The notes under the pieces are model-generated. The model saw only the letters and a program-made list of their open reading frames with translations. It was not told the DNA's origin and did not search any database. This document shows positions 42,658 to 53,954 of a DNA stretch of 58,444 bases, piece after piece (the first letter of the stretch is position 1; every line of letters begins with the position of its first letter). The stretch comes from a virus. The position numbers and the translations under genes are program-made. The stretch covers positions 1-58,444 of the IMG/VR virus record IMGVR_UViG_3300017963_004517. The stretch is one strand, 5' to 3'.

Positions 42658-42839
42658 TTTTTCACCTCCTCGTTGATCGCAAGCAAGTCGTTCAAGAGAT
42701 TATTGAACCGCGTCCAGATCTCATCCCACCTCGCAAACTCAGTCTTATAATCGCCATTAGGACAGATGATATAATCCCCATCTTTGGCCAGATACTCCCC
42801 ACAGACTGGACACAAGCCGGCTCTCTTTTCATCAGACAT
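42654..42839 (-). CDS. Zinc-ribbon protein beginning MSDEKRAGL (61 aa)
   Basis: CPVC...CPNG with a helical charged tail. Start at 42839 is chosen because a repeated 29-bp segment containing the start codon also precedes the gene at 43353, and each yields MSDEKRAGL. Overlaps the stop of the GNAT-like gene. Confidence 0.6.
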   Translation of the reverse strand: MSDEKRAGLCPVCGEYLAKDGDYIICPNGDYKTEFARWDEIWTRFNNLLNDLLAINEEVKK

Positions 42840-42842
42840 CCT
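42814..42842 (-). repeat. 29-bp direct repeat containing a start codon
   Basis: Identical to 43327-43355. Both copies include the ATG and first codons of adjacent genes, giving the same N-terminal MSDEKRAGL. Confidence 0.9.
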
Positions 42843-43353
42843 CGCCTCCACTTGGAAATAATAACTCATATTCGCGTTTTCCGCTCTGACCTGTTCTTAT
42901 CAGTTTTCCAATCTGCTTTTCTCTTTGTAGTTTTTCGGTCAGGGCTAGTCCACCCTCGGAGGTGGGGAATATGTTCACGGTTTTCATTCCCTTACTCCTA
43001 AGAATTTCAAGCGCCTCAACGGTTACAGCGTATCCAGAGCCGCGCCGCCTGGATCCTTCCGCGACCTCAGTATAGAAAATCTCACCTCTAGTGGGAGAGG
43101 TTCGGTCATTCGTAAAATCTGCCTTGATAAACCCCAGAACTTTGGCATCCCCGTTTCTAATCTCAAAATTTTCAGGGCTTCCGGCTACCCCCCAAGTTAC
43201 ACTTGAGTCTTTTCTTAGATTTGGGGAGTAAGATGTTTTAGACTTTCCCCCGCCATGCACGCTCTGTGGACTCCCGGATTTGTGCGGACCAGGACCGCCG
43301 TGCATAAGAACCATTCGAATACGCTTCAAGCCGGCTCTCTTTTCATCAGACAT
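42832..43353 (-). CDS. GNAT-like protein with GPGPHKSGSPQSVHGG linker
   Basis: Starts MSDEKRAGLKRIRMVLMH, then the Gly/Pro/His linker (about 19-34). The remaining about 140 residues (DAKVLGFIKADFTNDRTSPTRGEIFYTEVAEGSRRRGSGYAVTVEALEILRSKGMKTVNIFPTSEGGLALTEKLQREKQIG) match a GNAT acetyltransferase fold, including the Q/R-x-x-G-x-G-type RRRGSGYA acetyl-CoA loop. Substrate unknown. It shares its linker with the portal, minor head and protease proteins, suggesting virion delivery. Confidence 0.6.
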   Translation of the reverse strand: MSDEKRAGLKRIRMVLMHGGPGPHKSGSPQSVHGGGKSKTSYSPNLRKDSSVTWGVAGSPENFEIRNGDAKVLGFIKADFTNDRTSPTRGEIFYTEVAEGSRRRGSGYAVTVEALEILRSKGMKTVNIFPTSEGGLALTEKLQREKQIGKLIRTGQSGKREYELLFPSGGEDV

Positions 43354-43355
43354 CC
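43327..43355 (-). repeat. 29-bp direct repeat containing a start codon, copy 2
   Basis: Identical to 42814-42842; contains the start of the GNAT-like gene. Confidence 0.9.
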
Positions 43356-43594
43356 TGCACCTCCTCCACGACTGCAACGACTTCACGGACCGGAGTCGCA
43401 ACCAACAGATTCCTGGCGCCGGCAGAGCGGAGGTGGTCGGTATTGATAATACACTTCACCTTGCGCTTGCCATCCAGCCGCCGGCCCCGGATGGGCACCA
43501 ATTCGATGGAGCGGGTCGCAGGGTTGTAGATGAAGAGCAGGTGACCCTCGTCGTCCACGACTCTGATCATGCCGTTCTGATTTTCGTCGCTCAT
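43346..43594 (-). CDS. Small unknown protein (82 aa)
   Basis: Start at MSDENQNGMIRV (43594). The first half forms a small beta domain (RVVDDEGHLLFIYNPATRSIELVPIRGRR), the second is strand and acidic. Overlaps the stop of the minor head gene and the start of the GNAT-like gene. The MSDE opening resembles its neighbours. Confidence 0.55.
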   Translation of the reverse strand: MSDENQNGMIRVVDDEGHLLFIYNPATRSIELVPIRGRRLDGKRKVKCIINTDHLRSAGARNLLVATPVREVVAVVEEVQDV

Positions 43595-45015
43595 CGAAAC
43601 TCCAATCCACAAAGGCAATGCGATAAACAAGTCGCCTCGCCAATAGGAACCATGTCGGCAATCGGCACCCAGCCAAGCTGGAATAACTCAACGCACCCAG
43701 GCCGGCTCGAGTCTATGCAGTGCTCTTCGTTCGGCCCCAGGACTCTCCGGGCTTCCCGATAGCCGGCATCCTCAGCCACGCGCATGCGCTCGTTCTCGTA
43801 GATCGCATTCGCAGCCCGGGCATACATGCCGGCACGCACAACCGCGAACCCGTTCAATGGCTGCGCACCCGACTCGATCTCTGCCAGGAAATTGTCGAGC
43901 CAGCGGTAGTGTGGACGCATCCGCCAGCCAAACCTTGAAACATGAGACCGGTCGTAGTTTTCCAGACCCCCGATGGAGGCCAGGTAAGCCGCCCGGTATT
44001 CCTGTTTCATGATTGATCGCATCGCATCGTACCACTGCTGCCGGCTGATCTCGCCGTTCACCAGCCTGGCCGTGAGATCCCGCAGGTCACGCTGCACAGC
44101 ATTGGCAACCCGCTGGACTCCCATCTTGATCCGGAAGTCAGGCACCCGCCGGCCGGCGACCACGTAACGCCAGACTCCCGTGCTATGGTCGAAAAAAATC
44201 TCGGCCAGCCGGCGAGCGTTTTGAAAAACGTTCAAGCGAATGACCCTGAACGATGGAGTCTCTCTTTCTATTACTACATAGCGAGCATCTAGAAGTTCTC
44301 CAAAGTCCGTCGACACAAATGCTGCCGTTCCTGTCAAGGCGCTGCCGGCGCTCCAGTCTACGCGCCACATATAATCCATTTTGTCATTATCGTACAATCT
44401 TTGGATCCGGCGCAAAGTAGGAACGTCCAATTCATTAGTCGTGATGGATAGCGCAAACCTTCCCCTTCCATAATCATCAACGCCTATACGGATCCAGCCA
44501 TTCTCGAGTAGGTATGCCCTTCTACTGGATAAGGTTGTCCCTTTTGAATAATCGACCTCGTATCCGCCGGCTCTTATAACTTCCCGTTCAAAATCCATGT
44601 GTCCCTGCGGAGCTCGATAAACGTCATTATCTGGAGATACATAGAACTCATTGTGCTCTCCCTCACCGAAAATCTTATCGACCAGATAACCCAGGTCTGG
44701 ATCGATATCGAGCCTCTGTTTTGTTTCCGAACCATCTCCGCCGGCATGCACGCTCTGCGGCGTGCCCGTGCCTGGGTGCGGTCCAGGGCCGTAGTGCTGT
44801 TGCTTGACCAAAATCAAAGGCCGGGTTTCCAGCAGCCCCGGGATCCCAGAATGCTTATCCCACAGGTCAATCGTATCCTGGAGATCGTCAACATTCTCCA
44901 GCCACTCCTGGAGCTCATCCTCGGTCCAACGCCGGATGGGAATATTGTCGTCATCCGTGTAACGCCGGCGAGCCGGAAGGTCTAGGATCTGGGGGAGTGG
45001 GCTGGGAAAGGTCAT
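43591..45015 (-). CDS. Minor head-like protein with linker and inserted domain (474 aa)
   Basis: Residues 1-73 and about 260-474 look like a phage minor head or MuF-type protein: WRMRPHYRWLDNFLAEIESG, ANAIYENERMRVAEDAGYREARRVLGPNEEHCIDSSRPGCVELFQLGWVPIADM. Between them lies GPGPHPGTGTPQSVHAGG (about 76-93) and an unassigned domain with GWIRIGVDDYGRGRFALSITTNELDVPTLRRIQRLY. It directly follows the portal region, the normal minor-head place. Confidence 0.65.
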   Translation of the reverse strand: MTFPSPLPQILDLPARRRYTDDDNIPIRRWTEDELQEWLENVDDLQDTIDLWDKHSGIPGLLETRPLILVKQQHYGPGPHPGTGTPQSVHAGGDGSETKQRLDIDPDLGYLVDKIFGEGEHNEFYVSPDNDVYRAPQGHMDFEREVIRAGGYEVDYSKGTTLSSRRAYLLENGWIRIGVDDYGRGRFALSITTNELDVPTLRRIQRLYDNDKMDYMWRVDWSAGSALTGTAAFVSTDFGELLDARYVVIERETPSFRVIRLNVFQNARRLAEIFFDHSTGVWRYVVAGRRVPDFRIKMGVQRVANAVQRDLRDLTARLVNGEISRQQWYDAMRSIMKQEYRAAYLASIGGLENYDRSHVSRFGWRMRPHYRWLDNFLAEIESGAQPLNGFAVVRAGMYARAANAIYENERMRVAEDAGYREARRVLGPNEEHCIDSSRPGCVELFQLGWVPIADMVPIGEATCLSHCLCGLEFR

Positions 45016-45383
45016 TCCAAAAAAGTCCTTACAAAAAGAGTGTAAGATTGAGGCTCTTTCAGCGCACCATCAGGGTGAGGATCGTGAAATACCTCTCCGT
45101 TCCGGCCAACAACACTGTGATGGAAATCTCCATTCTTGCTGGTTCCATTGATTATGTGGTAACCCGTCGGCATGATCCCGCCGGCCTCGCAAGATTCAAT
45201 CGTCACGTCAATCGGATACAACTCAAATTTATAGATGCACCAAATCGTGAAGTTTTCATACCAGTCTGAACGATTCCCAAAGTCGGGTACATTATCTATG
45301 GGAATCTCGAAAATAGACGCCAAGCAAGCCGCTAGGCAATTGCCGTCTGGATAACCGAATTTGGTCTGGTCGGTTGGAATCAT
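45012..45383 (-). CDS. Papain/C39-like cysteine peptidase-like protein (123 aa)
   Basis: PDGNCLAACLASIFEIPIDNVPDFG near the N-terminus and HHSVVGRNGEVFHDPHPDG near the C-terminus give a Cys, His and Asp in papain-like order. Small phage and polymorphic proteins share this architecture. It lies between the portal and minor head genes, which carry linker modules; it may be another effector. Catalysis not shown. Confidence 0.65.
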   Translation of the reverse strand: MIPTDQTKFGYPDGNCLAACLASIFEIPIDNVPDFGNRSDWYENFTIWCIYKFELYPIDVTIESCEAGGIMPTGYHIINGTSKNGDFHHSVVGRNGEVFHDPHPDGALKEPQSYTLFVRTFLE

Positions 45384-45610
45384 TTCAAAGACGCCTTTAC
45401 TTTCTCAACTTCTTCCTGTTGAATCTCGGTGTAATTTTCATCGCCACCTATTCCAAAATGAGCAATCAACTCCGGGTCATCGATCCACTTGGAACCATCC
45501 CATCTTTCAGAGATAACCTTGTCTTTTTCAACGCTCCACCTATGCAGAGATCGGATGGTCTCTTCTTCGCCCTTTTTCCCTTCATATGTTTTTCTGACGA
45601 GATACTTCAT
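45380..45610 (-). CDS. Small charged protein (76 aa)
   Basis: ATG at 45610 overlaps the portal stop (ATGA). The sequence KYLVRKTYEGKKGEEETIRSLHRWSVEKDKVISERWDGSKW is mixed strand and helix. It stands between the portal and the peptidase-like gene. It could be a partner or immunity-type protein. No match recognised. Confidence 0.55.
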   Translation of the reverse strand: MKYLVRKTYEGKKGEEETIRSLHRWSVEKDKVISERWDGSKWIDDPELIAHFGIGGDENYTEIQQEEVEKVKASLK

Positions 45611-47817
45611 TTCACAACTCCTGGCAAGGCCTGCCAATTTACAGGACGTTCCAAATCATTCCACATAGATGACATCTCTCTAGCCAACTCTAACCGCTTT
45701 GCGTCGTTGGCGTCTAGCTCCCTCCATATCTCGTAGATTTTATGAACATTCCTTTTTATTGTCAGGGAATCTTCCGTGTGATATTGGATCTCGAACCTGA
45801 AACCGGTTTTCTCGTTCACCATAACGGTATTGTATCCGGCATACTCTCCACCAGGTTTGAAAAAGTTTTTCCATTTGTGATCGTATTTTTTCCAGCCGTC
45901 CCTGGCAAGGTCGGTCTGAACCTCTTTGACATCCTCAACGAACGTTTCAGGATTGAAAACCAGGGTATAACGGAGAGAGTCGTTTATTTGGAGAGCCGCC
46001 TCCTCTGGAGTGATCCCCATCTGCTCTGAGTCTATCCTTATTTTCCTGGAAAGACTAGCCGCTGTTTTGAGTTTATTGTCAAGCCCAACCAGTCTCCCGC
46101 CGGCCTTATCTGCAATTCTTTGAAGAGTAGAAGTCACCTCCGGCTCCGCCTTGGCTGCTTCCCTGATCTTGGTCTTGACCGCTTTCTCGATGTTAGACCG
46201 TGCGCCAGCCCCTTTACCTGGAGCAAAACCGCCGCGCCTGCCCGGTCTGCCTTTATGGCCTTTGTGACCAGAGCCCGGCCCACCGTGAGTCTTGAGAACT
46301 TCTTTCATTTGCCCTAAGTCAAACTCCTCGGGATTGGGAGCGAAGCCCCCCGAACCGTTCCCGTCGCCGGCCTGTGGGGGAGGAAACTTGTTGCCCTGCC
46401 CCATGGCCTTCTCTTCCTTGTCGGCCTGCTCGCGTTTCATGGCAGGAGTCCAAACAAAATTCAGGTAACGTTTGGCAAACTCCTCGGGAGGCATGATTGT
46501 CTCGGGAGCACCGCCGGAAGCTGTGCTCATCGCCTGGGCAGTCTTGACAGCCAGGTCGGCCTTTTGCATGTCGTTCAGTTCAATCAGGGACGGCCAATCA
46601 ACAAAATACTCCTCCGGGAGATCCAGAATCCCGAGCTCATCGCATCGATCCAGGAACGGCCGCAGGATGTAAGGCTCTGCAAAATTTCGCCGGCGAGCGT
46701 CGATCAGGTCCGAGAAGTTGTCATCATCTTGCGAGCTCGCCAGTTCACCGCGTTCGGACCCCAGCAGCCGACGCTGCGGGATTCCTTTTGATCCAGAGAT
46801 ATATTCGATGATCACATCGAACTGCTCACGCGAATCCACGGGATGACCTCCAAGCTCCTGGACATCCAGACCCCGGGCGCGAATGACCCGGCGGAGGTTG
46901 TGTTCCCACTCATCCCACTCGTCCTGCATAGCCTCGTACTCATCCGAGTCTTTCGATGGCAAAGTAAACCCTTCCATTGCTTTGAGCACCACCCCTTGAT
47001 AAATGAGTTTCCAGTAAGCCTCAGACCCGCCCCCGACTACCTTCTCGAGATCCCAAAAGCGGTTAATTATGTTTTTCAGGCCAGGGACGCCATACACGCG
47101 CCCCAGCCCCCCACCCCTCTGCCGGCCTTGCTTGATATGGATGACGCGGGAATAGTGGACCCGCCTGGAAAGTTCCCCTTGATCATCGATAACGATTTGA
47201 TAATACTCCGGCAGTCCGAATCTATTGGACTCCGGGTCTTTTACGATGCTGGTCTCATCTACCGTGGCATTGCCCTCGTCACACGTAATGACATAAGCCA
47301 ACTGGCCGGCCTTGCCTTTTATCTCGTCCTCGGGCCGGCCAGGCAACCCCAGGTAGAGCAGGGAAAACCTGGAGATCCCCAGCATCCGGTCGGCCTCAAG
47401 GAACTGAGCCCATAGATCGTGACTCTTTACTAACTCTTTGAATCTCTCTTGAATTGGACCGGGCTCGGCCTTTTCGTCCTCGGCCTTTTCCTCGCTCTCG
47501 AATAAAATTGGATGTTTACGCCAGGTCTCATCGCTCACCAAATCAACCACACGAGTCCCTATTCCATCACGCTCGTATATGTTGAGATAATCGGAATACT
47601 CTGGGTCTAGCTTATAGCCAAGCGTCTCATAGAGTTTTCGGTCACCATCAAACGACTGACCCAGCGCACGGCCAAGGCCGGCGCGACTCAAACGGGATAG
47701 ATAAGAATTCAACTGTATTGCGTGATCAAGCTGCCGACTAGTTGCATTGAGTTTTTTTTCCAGGTCGGCCTTAGTCCCCGCTCGCGGTTTCTTGGTTCCT
47801 TTTGGTTGATTAGCCAT
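45607..47817 (-). CDS. Portal protein fused to a RelA/SpoT-like domain
   Basis: Start at MANQPKG (47817), preceded by GGAAGGTGA. Residues 1-505 fit a DUF1073-type portal protein (LNIYERDGIGTRVVDLVSDETWRKHPILFE, VITCDEGNATVDE, EYISGSKGIPQRRLLGSERGELASSQDDDNFSDLIDARR). A GGPGSGHKGHKGRPG linker starts near 511. The last about 190 residues resemble RelA/SpoT-type synthetase-like domains: NDSLRYTLVF (612-621), YAGYNT (659-664), FEIQYHTEDS (675-684) and KRNVHKIYEIWR (688-699). Activity could be a nucleotide-modifying toxin or signal enzyme delivered with the virion; not proven. Confidence 0.8.
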   Translation of the reverse strand: MANQPKGTKKPRAGTKADLEKKLNATSRQLDHAIQLNSYLSRLSRAGLGRALGQSFDGDRKLYETLGYKLDPEYSDYLNIYERDGIGTRVVDLVSDETWRKHPILFESEEKAEDEKAEPGPIQERFKELVKSHDLWAQFLEADRMLGISRFSLLYLGLPGRPEDEIKGKAGQLAYVITCDEGNATVDETSIVKDPESNRFGLPEYYQIVIDDQGELSRRVHYSRVIHIKQGRQRGGGLGRVYGVPGLKNIINRFWDLEKVVGGGSEAYWKLIYQGVVLKAMEGFTLPSKDSDEYEAMQDEWDEWEHNLRRVIRARGLDVQELGGHPVDSREQFDVIIEYISGSKGIPQRRLLGSERGELASSQDDDNFSDLIDARRRNFAEPYILRPFLDRCDELGILDLPEEYFVDWPSLIELNDMQKADLAVKTAQAMSTASGGAPETIMPPEEFAKRYLNFVWTPAMKREQADKEEKAMGQGNKFPPPQAGDGNGSGGFAPNPEEFDLGQMKEVLKTHGGPGSGHKGHKGRPGRRGGFAPGKGAGARSNIEKAVKTKIREAAKAEPEVTSTLQRIADKAGGRLVGLDNKLKTAASLSRKIRIDSEQMGITPEEAALQINDSLRYTLVFNPETFVEDVKEVQTDLARDGWKKYDHKWKNFFKPGGEYAGYNTVMVNEKTGFRFEIQYHTEDSLTIKRNVHKIYEIWRELDANDAKRLELAREMSSMWNDLERPVNWQALPGVVK

Positions 47818-47821
47818 AGAT

Positions 47822-49255
47822 TCACCTTCCAAATGTGCCGGCAACTCGAGGGCCGACTAATTCATTATAGCATCCCGACGCCGCGTCGACAATATCATCA
47901 TGGTACTGTGGATCCGGGAAATTGTGCAACTGCGCCAAAAACTCCTCGTTCCAAGAGCCGGCCAGCAGTTTGACATTTCCAGCAAAGGCCTGGGATGCCA
48001 ACGGCTTCGCACGCAAAACCTTGTCGCCGGCACCCGCCACCGGGATACCCATCACGTCGAAGCCCTGCATTCCTGTGACCACGTTGTAAGCATCCCGAAC
48101 GCCAGACGCCCCGCCCTCCTGTTCGAACCGGACCGCAACCTTCAACCCCCCAGAGTTGTCCTGGGTCGCAGTATTGAAAACAGCATTATTGGCCTCAGCC
48201 GGACTCATGCGCTCGTTGGACATATCCAGGATATAGGTTATCCCGTCCACGATCTTGCCCTTGACCGAGGCTGTGTAATCCGGGTCATCCTTTTTCTTGG
48301 TCGTGCCCAGGCTCTTCTTGGTCGCCGCGAAATCCCAAAAACGCACCATGCGTCCGCCGGCCGGCACGGCCGGCACGATCTCGAACCAGGCCCGGTTGAA
48401 CACCAGGCCGGCCTCCGGTTTGATTTTCCAGTTTCCGCCGCGCCTAGCATCCCCGAGCAGCCGCTGCCGGTCCACCAGGGGAAGCGCCTGCAAGTTGGCC
48501 AGGTAAGCCGGATCCTTAGACAACAGAATCTCATTATCGTAGACTGTGGAGAGAATGAAGGTCACCGATTTGGGCAATGACCCCGGGAACTTTTCCTGCA
48601 ACTCACCTGGAGTGTCAGCCCAATGGATCTGGTCATTCTCGTTGACCATCCAACGGATAACCCCAGATCGCTCAGGGATAGCCCAGCCCTCGTCGTCGAT
48701 CCACCAGGCCAGGAAATCGGCCAGCCAGCCAGGCTCCGGATTGGCACTGGCTCTCACATATGGCTTGACCCCGCACATCGACCGGTTGCGGGATAGCATG
48801 TAGAAAAACTGCGACTGTGTGAAGGTCTCAAGTTGGTCGAACTCAAGCAACGGAACCTGGGCGCTTTTCCAGGCCTCCTTGTCCTGTTCTCGCTGCATGT
48901 GAGAGAATGAGATATTCGAGCCGGCAGGGAACCGGTAACGCTTGTCGTTCTCGTTTGGCCGGCCACCCAGATAGGGATAGATATCGCCGGCCTCATCCCA
49001 TAGAGCACCCTCATGGGTGATCTCCGGGATAGTACGCCGGAAGATGACCGCGCCAAAACCTGGATTGGAAATATGACGAAGAGGCTCGACCAACAGGCTC
49101 CAGGTTTTGCCCCCGCCGGCGGCGCCACCATAGATGGCAATGTCAGCCGACGAGGCATGGAACTCAGCCTGCCTTGGTTGAGGGACTACTACAAAGTTGT
49201 CAGGGTTGGATAGTTGAGTCTGTACGGCTCGATCAACATCAGTTTTTGTCAGCAC
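47822..49255 (-). CDS. terL: Terminase large subunit
   Basis: The 477-aa protein has Walker A GGAAGGGKT (43-51) and a Walker B-like LLEFDQ (136-141). Nuclease-type acidic positions include VRFWDFAATKKS and HDDIVDAASG near the C-terminus. It should drive DNA packaging through the portal and cut the concatemer. It sits between the small terminase and portal genes, the normal order. Confidence 0.95.
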   Translation of the reverse strand: MLTKTDVDRAVQTQLSNPDNFVVVPQPRQAEFHASSADIAIYGGAAGGGKTWSLLVEPLRHISNPGFGAVIFRRTIPEITHEGALWDEAGDIYPYLGGRPNENDKRYRFPAGSNISFSHMQREQDKEAWKSAQVPLLEFDQLETFTQSQFFYMLSRNRSMCGVKPYVRASANPEPGWLADFLAWWIDDEGWAIPERSGVIRWMVNENDQIHWADTPGELQEKFPGSLPKSVTFILSTVYDNEILLSKDPAYLANLQALPLVDRQRLLGDARRGGNWKIKPEAGLVFNRAWFEIVPAVPAGGRMVRFWDFAATKKSLGTTKKKDDPDYTASVKGKIVDGITYILDMSNERMSPAEANNAVFNTATQDNSGGLKVAVRFEQEGGASGVRDAYNVVTGMQGFDVMGIPVAGAGDKVLRAKPLASQAFAGNVKLLAGSWNEEFLAQLHNFPDPQYHDDIVDAASGCYNELVGPRVAGTFGR

Positions 49256-53370: not shown

Positions 53371-53919
53371 CTAGTCATGAAATTCTGGGGCTTGACCTTT
53401 TGGCCAGACCGTTTTTATTGATTTGTCATTTAGCAAATCATAAAATTCTCGTTGCTTGTGCTTTACTCCCAGGGAGTTGGCCTCCTCGATGGTCTCAACC
53501 GGGATGCTTACGTCAAGATAGATATTTCCATCTTCCGTATTGAACCAGCCTCCGAAGTATTTGTCATCATCCTTTAGAAGATCCCAATTTTCATCGACAT
53601 AATCTGACAGGTCTTTTTCTGTGATGTCTTTGGCCGGGATGATCTTGCTCCGTTCGGCATAGGGTGAAACGATAAACCCGACAGCGGCGGCGTGCTCTTC
53701 TAAAACTGGCTGGTATGAAAATCCGCCTTTCTCCAGTAAATGATCCCGCAGGGATTTGTACTTTGATGGCTTCGATGTCTTTGACGGCTTAGATGATTTT
53801 CTGCCTCCGCCTGGAGCAGAGCCGCCACGCTGGCCAGGCCGGCCCTTGTGTCCTTTGTGACCGGAACCCTTGCCGCCGCTCAGTACAAGTTTCATTCGCT
53901 CCAGGTTTATTTTGTTCAT
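53371..53919 (-). CDS. Protein of unknown function with GKGSGHKGHKGRPG linker (182 aa)
   Basis: Start at MNKINLERMKLVLSGGKGSG (53919). The Gly/His/Lys linker covers about 15-40. The C-terminal domain, KGGFSYQPVLEEHAAAVGFIVSPYAERS and YFGGWFNTEDGNIYLDVSIPVETIEEA, resembles a domain I recall from polymorphic phage proteins. Function unknown. It shows the linker in a gene far from the head cluster. Confidence 0.65.
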   Translation of the reverse strand: MNKINLERMKLVLSGGKGSGHKGHKGRPGQRGGSAPGGGRKSSKPSKTSKPSKYKSLRDHLLEKGGFSYQPVLEEHAAAVGFIVSPYAERSKIIPAKDITEKDLSDYVDENWDLLKDDDKYFGGWFNTEDGNIYLDVSIPVETIEEANSLGVKHKQREFYDLLNDKSIKTVWPKGQAPEFHD

Positions 53920-53954
53920 AGTTTCATTATACACCTTTTTAGGGCCGGGGTAAA

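Follow-up and report, generated by a model that had tools for sequence, protein, structure and literature searches.

A phage portal protein with a predicted alarmone-synthetase domain at its C-terminal end and a probable immunity gene beside it

Why should a portal protein, the essential head component through which phage DNA leaves, end in what resembles a nucleotide-signal enzyme? The question is raised by a gene in the IMG/VR virus record IMGVR_UViG_3300017963_004517 (58,444 bases, from an uncultured phage; the whole record is called the window below), for which an earlier note had proposed a RelA/SpoT-like domain at the C-terminus of the portal. The portal gene with its C-terminal alarmone-synthetase domain is confirmed here as a real observation. 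Beyond the earlier note, we find that a probable immunity gene adjoins it, that the end of the portal is exchanged among close relatives (alarmone synthetase, 2H phosphoesterase or nothing), and that the tag sequence separating portal body and cargo is used more widely. A predicted alarmone-synthetase toxin and its probable immunity gene thus sit on an essential head protein (Table 1).

The Pfam scan found no RelA/SpoT match to the C-terminal domain, so that a survey relying on Pfam would overlook it. The nature of the domain emerges from other comparisons: (i), the C-terminal stretch matches PDB 8vx3, the SaEAS/SaSAS enzyme of Streptomyces albidoflavus (phmmer, E 1.8e-18, residues 35-218 of the 227-residue query); (ii), it is matched by PHROGs 7625, 2859 and 2841, which are C-termini of head proteins (best E 7.8e-30), and by an XopAD-family C-terminus in NCBIfam (E 8.1e-31, far below the whole-protein cut-off of that model); (iii), 42 phage records match it by tblastn with 31-42% identity (best E 2e-32), their hosts being Streptococcus (33), Pasteurella (3), and Haemophilus, Aggregatibacter and Mannheimia (2 each), and the features under these matches are named head morphogenesis, minor head, head, capsid, scaffold or hypothetical protein; and (iv), the AlphaFold model built from 57 aligned rows (mean predicted local distance difference test, pLDDT, 95.7; predicted template modelling score 0.90) has the SYNTH fold of the RelA/SpoT superfamily. 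The top Foldseek match to this model was again 8vx3 (E 3.9e-13, template modelling score 0.84), followed by Tas1 and small alarmone synthetases, and VIA-align ranked 8vx3 highest (Z 22.8 over 194 residues), ahead of RelP (14.1), Tas1 (13.6), CapRel (12.8) and FaRel2 (8.0). The earlier reading is therefore borne out by both sequence and structure matches, the predicted structure being a synthetase fold and not a different one.

The active-site residues are intact. Eleven columns are invariant in all 57 aligned rows, the window's row among them, and they comprise the ATP- and metal-site residues K47, K55, D76, R79, E139 and Q141 plus five others, so the basic and acidic residues that the earlier note had named as a check are in place; in portal numbering, Asp613 and Glu676 belong to this set. 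Alignment to D121 of SaEAS points to Asp613 as the Mg-site aspartate, and since SaEAS was crystallised in a D121A form (PMC12691689), 8vx3 has an alanine where the window has Asp. The window also carries LRYTLV, YAGYNT and EIQYHT at syn2, syn3 and syn4, corresponding to the RYT, GxN and YH of the adenosine-type signature of Apk enzymes (PMC12226406), and the four patterns that had first drawn attention to the domain all sit in aligned blocks of the family. The data support the assignment of the portal C-terminus to the alarmone synthetases of the SYNTH superfamily, with a predicted pyrophosphokinase activity whose product would most likely be of the (p)ppApp type. In the Apk2 domain of Pasteurella phage Pmp2 (L008, 882-1430), the aspartate of the RYT block, present in the other rows of the Apk2 alignment (A2), is absent, and to judge from its sequence this copy may be inactive.

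The carrier is a portal by its matches to PF06381 and to PHROG 146 (E 4.3e-51), with a terminase gene adjoining. Its frame is uninterrupted over 745 codons (45607-47844, minus strand), up to a TTG at 47844. Because GGAAGGTGA stands directly upstream of ATG 47817, we take this ATG as the likely start codon, which gives the 736 residues that the earlier note had also counted. None of the 13-mers of the stretch 46131-46330, around the junction, recurs elsewhere in the window, which makes a repeat-driven misassembly within the record unlikely. An in-frame ATG (46306-46308, minus strand) lies just before the tag (GGGCAAATG), and from it a separate tag-plus-enzyme protein could in principle be made from inside the portal gene.

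Table 1. Features of the portal locus in the window
Feature	Coordinates	Strand	Remarks
Portal gene with C-terminal alarmone-synthetase domain	45607..47817	-	736 amino acids from ATG 47817
Portal body, PF06381	46528..47592	-	residues 85-439 of the 745-residue reading, E 8.9e-26
Tag between portal body and cargo domain	46228..46284	-	GGPGSGHKGHKGRPGRRGG
Alarmone-synthetase (Apk-like, SYNTH) domain	45610..46206	-	residues 538-736, 199 residues; activity predicted
IapK-like putative immunity gene	45380..45610	-	76 amino acids; ATG overlaps the portal stop (ATGA)
Small gene, PHROG 5845, function unknown	45012..45383	-	123 amino acids; ATGA overlap with the immunity gene
Head protein in MuF position, PHROG 24776	43591..45015	-	ATGA overlap with the preceding gene; context
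Terminase large subunit	47822..49255	-	Pfam and PHROG matches; context

Is the enzyme guarded? Three successive ATGA overlaps link the portal gene to the 76-residue gene, this gene to the 123-residue gene, and the latter to the head protein. A profile was built from 44 first-downstream open reading frames that follow Apk domains, picked by eye for a shared W and an acidic tail, the window itself being left out. It ranked the 76-residue gene first among 830 frames of the window (E 6e-12) and still found it after removal of the rows from L146, L155 and L156 (E 5.8e-8). The metagenomic half of the profile (21 rows) matched the MuF-linked half, which includes the characterised IapKs (23 rows), with 97.5% probability and E 7.5e-12. 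By this match and by its position right after an Apk domain, the 76-residue gene belongs to an IapK-like family and is linked to the characterised IapKs through intermediate sequences only, aligning loosely with seven of them. Its model is confident (pLDDT 89.5), and the structure searches found no solved relative, all matches being weak (E 2.0 at best in Foldseek, Z below 3 in VIA). PADLOC gave no match for this gene, for the alarmone-synthetase domain or for the 2H domain of related portals described below.

The company kept by this family was surveyed more widely. Among 10,056 frames from 79 tag-bearing loci and 11 loci with related portals, the profile matched in L266 and L298 only, in both cases beside an Apk domain (L266 and seed row L156 come from one contig, whereas L298 was not a seed), and the IapK-like family therefore accompanies Apk rather than tags in general. 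L269 and L271 have an Apk match and lack an IapK-like partner, both matches lying at or near a contig end. At Apk loci with at least 1.2 kilobases (kb) of downstream DNA, seed rows and redundant contigs included, an IapK-like gene occurs within 3 kb downstream in 80 of 80 loci of the first viral scan, 30 of 45 genome loci and 56 of 76 loci of the later viral scans, leaving 15 genome and 20 metagenome loci without one; HD hydrolases occur within the same distance at 78, 5 and 18 of these loci, respectively. In L149, L156, L157 and L182, the IapK-like sequence forms the N-terminus of a protein of about 210-220 residues instead of a separate small gene. Seven of the 42 tblastn phage records were examined for downstream genes: in five (IPP46, V22, Javan146, Pmp13 and Pmp2) a small open reading frame is followed by a gene annotated as a phosphohydrolase or (p)ppGpp pyrophosphohydrolase, in 1152AP2 two hypothetical genes of matching sizes follow, and Aaphi23 has hypothetical genes only. 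The genes in these records correspond to the Apk2, IapK and Aph1 of PMC12226406.

The end of the portal is an exchangeable slot. Two scans yielded 11 contigs with related portals (L090-L098, L236 and L237), and the C-terminal end is visible in eight of them, the sequences of L092, L094 and L098 being cut off before it. Six of the eight (L090, L091, L093, L095, L236 and L237) end in a 2H phosphoesterase domain with HIT and HMT motifs, which in L236 is open at the contig end; these domains share 45-88% identity with that of L091. The remaining two, L096 and L097, carry no cargo, and in L096 a stand-alone tagged protein is encoded right after the cargo-free portal. PF13563 matched the 2H domains in the four that were scanned (E 4e-11 to 4.5e-13). 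The earlier note had pointed to DUF1073-type portals with C-terminal anti-CBASS domains; the sister portals bear out in kind that such portals carry other enzymes at this end, and the anti-CBASS part is not shown by these data, Acb1 (PF23474) staying below its curated cut-off. Among relatives, the portal C-terminus is thus occupied by an alarmone synthetase, by a 2H phosphoesterase or by nothing. A conserved carrier, a swappable end and an adjoining IapK-like gene make up the layout of a polymorphic toxin, and a toxic role is predicted from it.

Where may the module have come from? Single-sequence searching retrieved no relatives in an initial viral scan. Alignment-based scans, three of viral and one of genome contigs, gave 211 Apk-like loci, redundant contigs and some re-cut and recounted ones included; each viral scan contributed the best 80 of its 135, 181 and 178 confirmed relatives. 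The carriers seen were MuF-like proteins, head-protease-like proteins (L169, PHROG 80; L170 and L183, PHROG 1522), PHROG 2859 proteins and tagged multi-module proteins. None of the 211 carriers matches the profile of the window's portal family (E up to 10), other portal types being possible among those not scanned with PHROGs, and on our reading none of the 17 that were so scanned is a portal; L217 has two matches to PHROGs named 'portal protein' (2662 and 859), which by our reading lie over its MuF-like stretch. The portal fusion therefore rests on one contig. By BLAST, the closest relatives of the domain are tagged modules on the contigs of L156 (49%) and L154 (45%). A quick tree of 57 rows, in which 20 of the 54 inner forks are open, places it as sister to the GGPGSG-tagged module of L156 (Shimodaira-Hasegawa-like approximate likelihood-ratio test 95), with L154, L155, L160 and L146 nearby; 15 of the 19 MuF-labelled rows fall in a 17-row clade (support 97) that excludes the window domain, and the other four lie elsewhere.

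The tag preceding the domain recurs in other proteins. A search with the tag pattern gave at least 120 stretches, of which 80 loci were analysed; since the pattern was fixed, the tag counts are biased. These loci hold 146 tags in 121 frames, or 135 modules in 110 non-redundant frames, 20 of which bear more than one tag. The 126 tagged modules of 60-900 residues form 79 clusters, whose representatives match 20 Pfam families at E up to 0.001, including GNAT, Zeta toxin, DRAT and other ADP-ribosyltransferases, and CdiA_C. No more than 26 of the 79 had any match. Tag expressions occur in 19 of 46 viral Apk clusters versus none of 28 genome clusters, and in 7 of 3600 shuffles, the expressions having been composed after these same sequences had been viewed. 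The window has two such tags, at 46.3 kb and 53.8 kb, which agree at 20 of 23 residues, with different codons at 12 of these; such a pattern is compatible with selection for the peptide sequence or just with age. Among the papers listed for 'GGPGSG', judged by title or abstract start, none concerned a phage tag.

Several further observations concern these tags. They look like junctions where modules come and go. In L147, L154, L156, L160, L173 and L199, the tag is repeated before each of several modules in one protein, the tag types varying between viruses; the L298 contig has eight tags, and one protein of L250 ends three residues past its tag with no module behind. Within the window, the protein in MuF position has an insert of about 193 residues (44218-44796, minus strand) that begins with GPGPHPGTGTPQSVHAGG, is absent from the three alignable relatives (L091, L093 and L097) and has no Pfam or PHROG match. 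The small gene beside the MuF gene (42832-43401, minus strand) begins with a related tag, HGGPGPHKSGSPQSVHGGG, and has a weak GNAT match (PF00583, E 0.0018) below the cut-off. A stand-alone protein (53371-53934, minus strand; PHROG 3170, E 2.8e-7, function unknown) starts with a short segment and a portal-type tag (GGKGSGHKGHKGRPGQRGG).

It is tempting to speculate that the tag is a packaging or processing signal that marks swappable effector modules, each to be packed into the head and then cleaved off. The motif GGPGSGxxGHxGRPGxxGG, together with similar tags (HDQSTHGxWA, DERGRFxSGGG and GHPFRGNQHTDGGG) for modules on portal, MuF, protease and stand-alone proteins, would then be a general code for effector delivery by phages, of which the portal-borne alarmone synthetase would be one example. 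We regard so broad a reading as doubtful. The tag offers a handle in the search for more head-borne effectors. The 123-residue protein, which to the eye has a Cys..His..Asp look, was considered as a candidate double-glycine protease whose substrate would be the tag, and rejected: it has no PDB match and, among the loci collected, no relatives besides the window. Its gene is probably a passenger; relatives occur in 65 phage records, Arthrobacter phages being the commonest (19).

What might such a fusion do? The data argue strongly for what the fusion is and weakly for its role in nature. The reading that we favour, and consider rather likely, is that the virion carries a (p)ppApp-type effector kept in check by an immunity protein. 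The domain would transfer pyrophosphate from ATP onto the 3'-OH of nucleotides of adenosine and possibly guanosine, giving (p)ppApp-type products at the expense of the ATP pool. The 76-residue protein, translated together with it at the late stage of expression, would inhibit it by binding, keeping the producing cell alive long enough for virions to be built. Phage portals are assemblies of twelve subunits whose C-termini face the capsid interior. Placed there, and perhaps freed from the portal at the tag, the domain would enter or act in the next host, where in the absence of the immunity protein nucleotide metabolism would be disrupted, presumably to the benefit of the phage. If this is true, each virion could deliver a set amount of a nucleotide-signal enzyme to its host, and whether head-borne phage toxins act on infection becomes directly testable.

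A number of results weigh against this proposal. Portals normally stay in the virion and are not known to be ejected, so that delivery would depend on a putative cleavage. MuF toxins have been described from temperate phages, and their delivery is itself a published proposal (PMC5576092); no integrase was found among the window's reading frames that were scanned. No HD hydrolase (Aph1) was found in the window (best E 8.1). The link of the 76-residue gene to the IapKs is lost when the 23 MuF-linked rows serve as the sole profile (E 0.68), and its single-sequence comparison with seven IapKs (hhalign) gave no match. SaEAS shares RYT and GxN and yet prefers guanylates (PMC12691689), so that a (p)ppApp-type product is a tentative assignment. 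Finally, the fusion is seen in a single contig: L098 matches the window at 99.95% identity over 4.1 kb but stops inside the portal, and a scan for the junction peptide, from which records near the window may have been left out, found no other record.

This last point raises the concern that assembly joined the portal to the tagged effector of another phage, given that L098 cannot confirm the junction. We consider such an artefact extremely improbable: the frame is open across the junction, no junction 13-mer is repeated in the window, and the three ATGA overlaps lead into a head protein found after the portal in L091 and L097 as well. It is also conceivable that the domain has lost its enzymatic function and now serves the portal as a structural or DNA-binding element, as the Pmp2 copy without its aspartate shows that a key residue can be lost in the family. 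With 11 of 11 family-invariant residues kept in the window domain and an immunity-family gene still coupled to it, such a fate seems very improbable indeed.

Two other alternatives concern what a working enzyme would act on, and where. Modification of tRNA (pyrophosphorylation of the 3'-CCA, as by FaRel2 and CapRel) instead of free nucleotides draws on membership of a common superfamily and on the structural matches to CapRel (Z 12.8) and FaRel2 (Z 8.0). The nucleotide enzymes fit better (SaEAS 22.8, RelP 14.1, Tas1 13.6), and the assayed sequence relatives, Apk2 and SaEAS, act on nucleotides; we therefore hold a tRNA substrate to be very unlikely. The enzyme and its immunity protein may alternatively act inside the producing cell, whether to shut down the host late, to keep out a second phage or as a guard resembling a toxin-antitoxin system, without ever being delivered by virions. 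The coupling of the immunity gene to the portal gene suggests that the domain would be harmful during its own synthesis, which suits this view, as does the retention of portals in virions. Against it, relatives use the portal end for another enzyme, and relatives of the domain sit on MuF and other head proteins, which suggests the virion as the common theme; we consider action confined to the producing cell unlikely, and keep the virion-borne effector as our preferred reading.

How does the fusion compare with known systems? The nearest are the Apk2 toxins, MuF-linked adenosine 3'-pyrophosphokinases that occur with IapK and Aph1 in prophages of S. pneumoniae, M. haemolytica and P. multocida. 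Of three Apk2 domains that inhibit E. coli on expression, those of S. pneumoniae and M. haemolytica are bactericidal and make (p)ppApp only, and MuF-borne Apk2 is neutralised by IapK (PMC12226406). The window shares with them a homologous catalytic domain (30-39% identity to seven phage copies in alignment A2), its position as a C-terminal extension of a head protein, the adjoining gene of the IapK-like family and the adenosine-type syn signature. It differs in that the carrier is a PF06381 portal and not a MuF protein, that Aph1 is missing from the iapK-aph1 pair despite the IapK-like gene, that the domain lies outside the clade holding most MuF-linked rows, and that the relation to IapK runs through intermediate sequences. 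SaEAS is the best solved structural match, but it is Sec-secreted, has no immunity gene and makes both (p)ppGpp and (p)ppApp, according to the accessible text of PMC12691689. Tas1/Apk1, the (p)ppApp toxin of type VI secretion (PDB 6ox6), has a common fold with the domain but is carried by a PAAR protein (PMC12226406). Bxa, a MuF ADP-ribosyltransferase toxin of a Bacteroides prophage, likewise is a toxin at the C-terminus of a head protein, encoded next to small immunity genes, but is another enzyme on another carrier (PMC11699363).

Effector domains on portals have precedents. PMC5512222 describes 2H phosphoesterase, PBECR and InPase domains on portals and RelA/SpoT domains on MuF and in polyvalent proteins; the window resembles these fusions in having an effector on the portal and a RelA/SpoT-type domain on a phage head protein, but in the accessible text RelA/SpoT is placed on MuF and polyvalent proteins, not on the portal, and neither an immunity gene nor a tag is mentioned. 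The carriers of exported alarmone synthetases given in the accessible text of PMC12691689 are Sec signals, WXG/LXG, XopAD, MuF, DUF4157 and Rhs/PAAR, the portal not being listed. In the literature collection searched, where the papers listed were in part judged by title and abstract start, no published alarmone synthetase on a portal was found, and the papers listed on DUF1073, portal and Acb1, judged by title or abstract start, included none on this fusion. Enzyme fusions on portals and RelA/SpoT domains on MuF proteins are thus already known, and what appears to be new here is the predicted alarmone synthetase on a portal.

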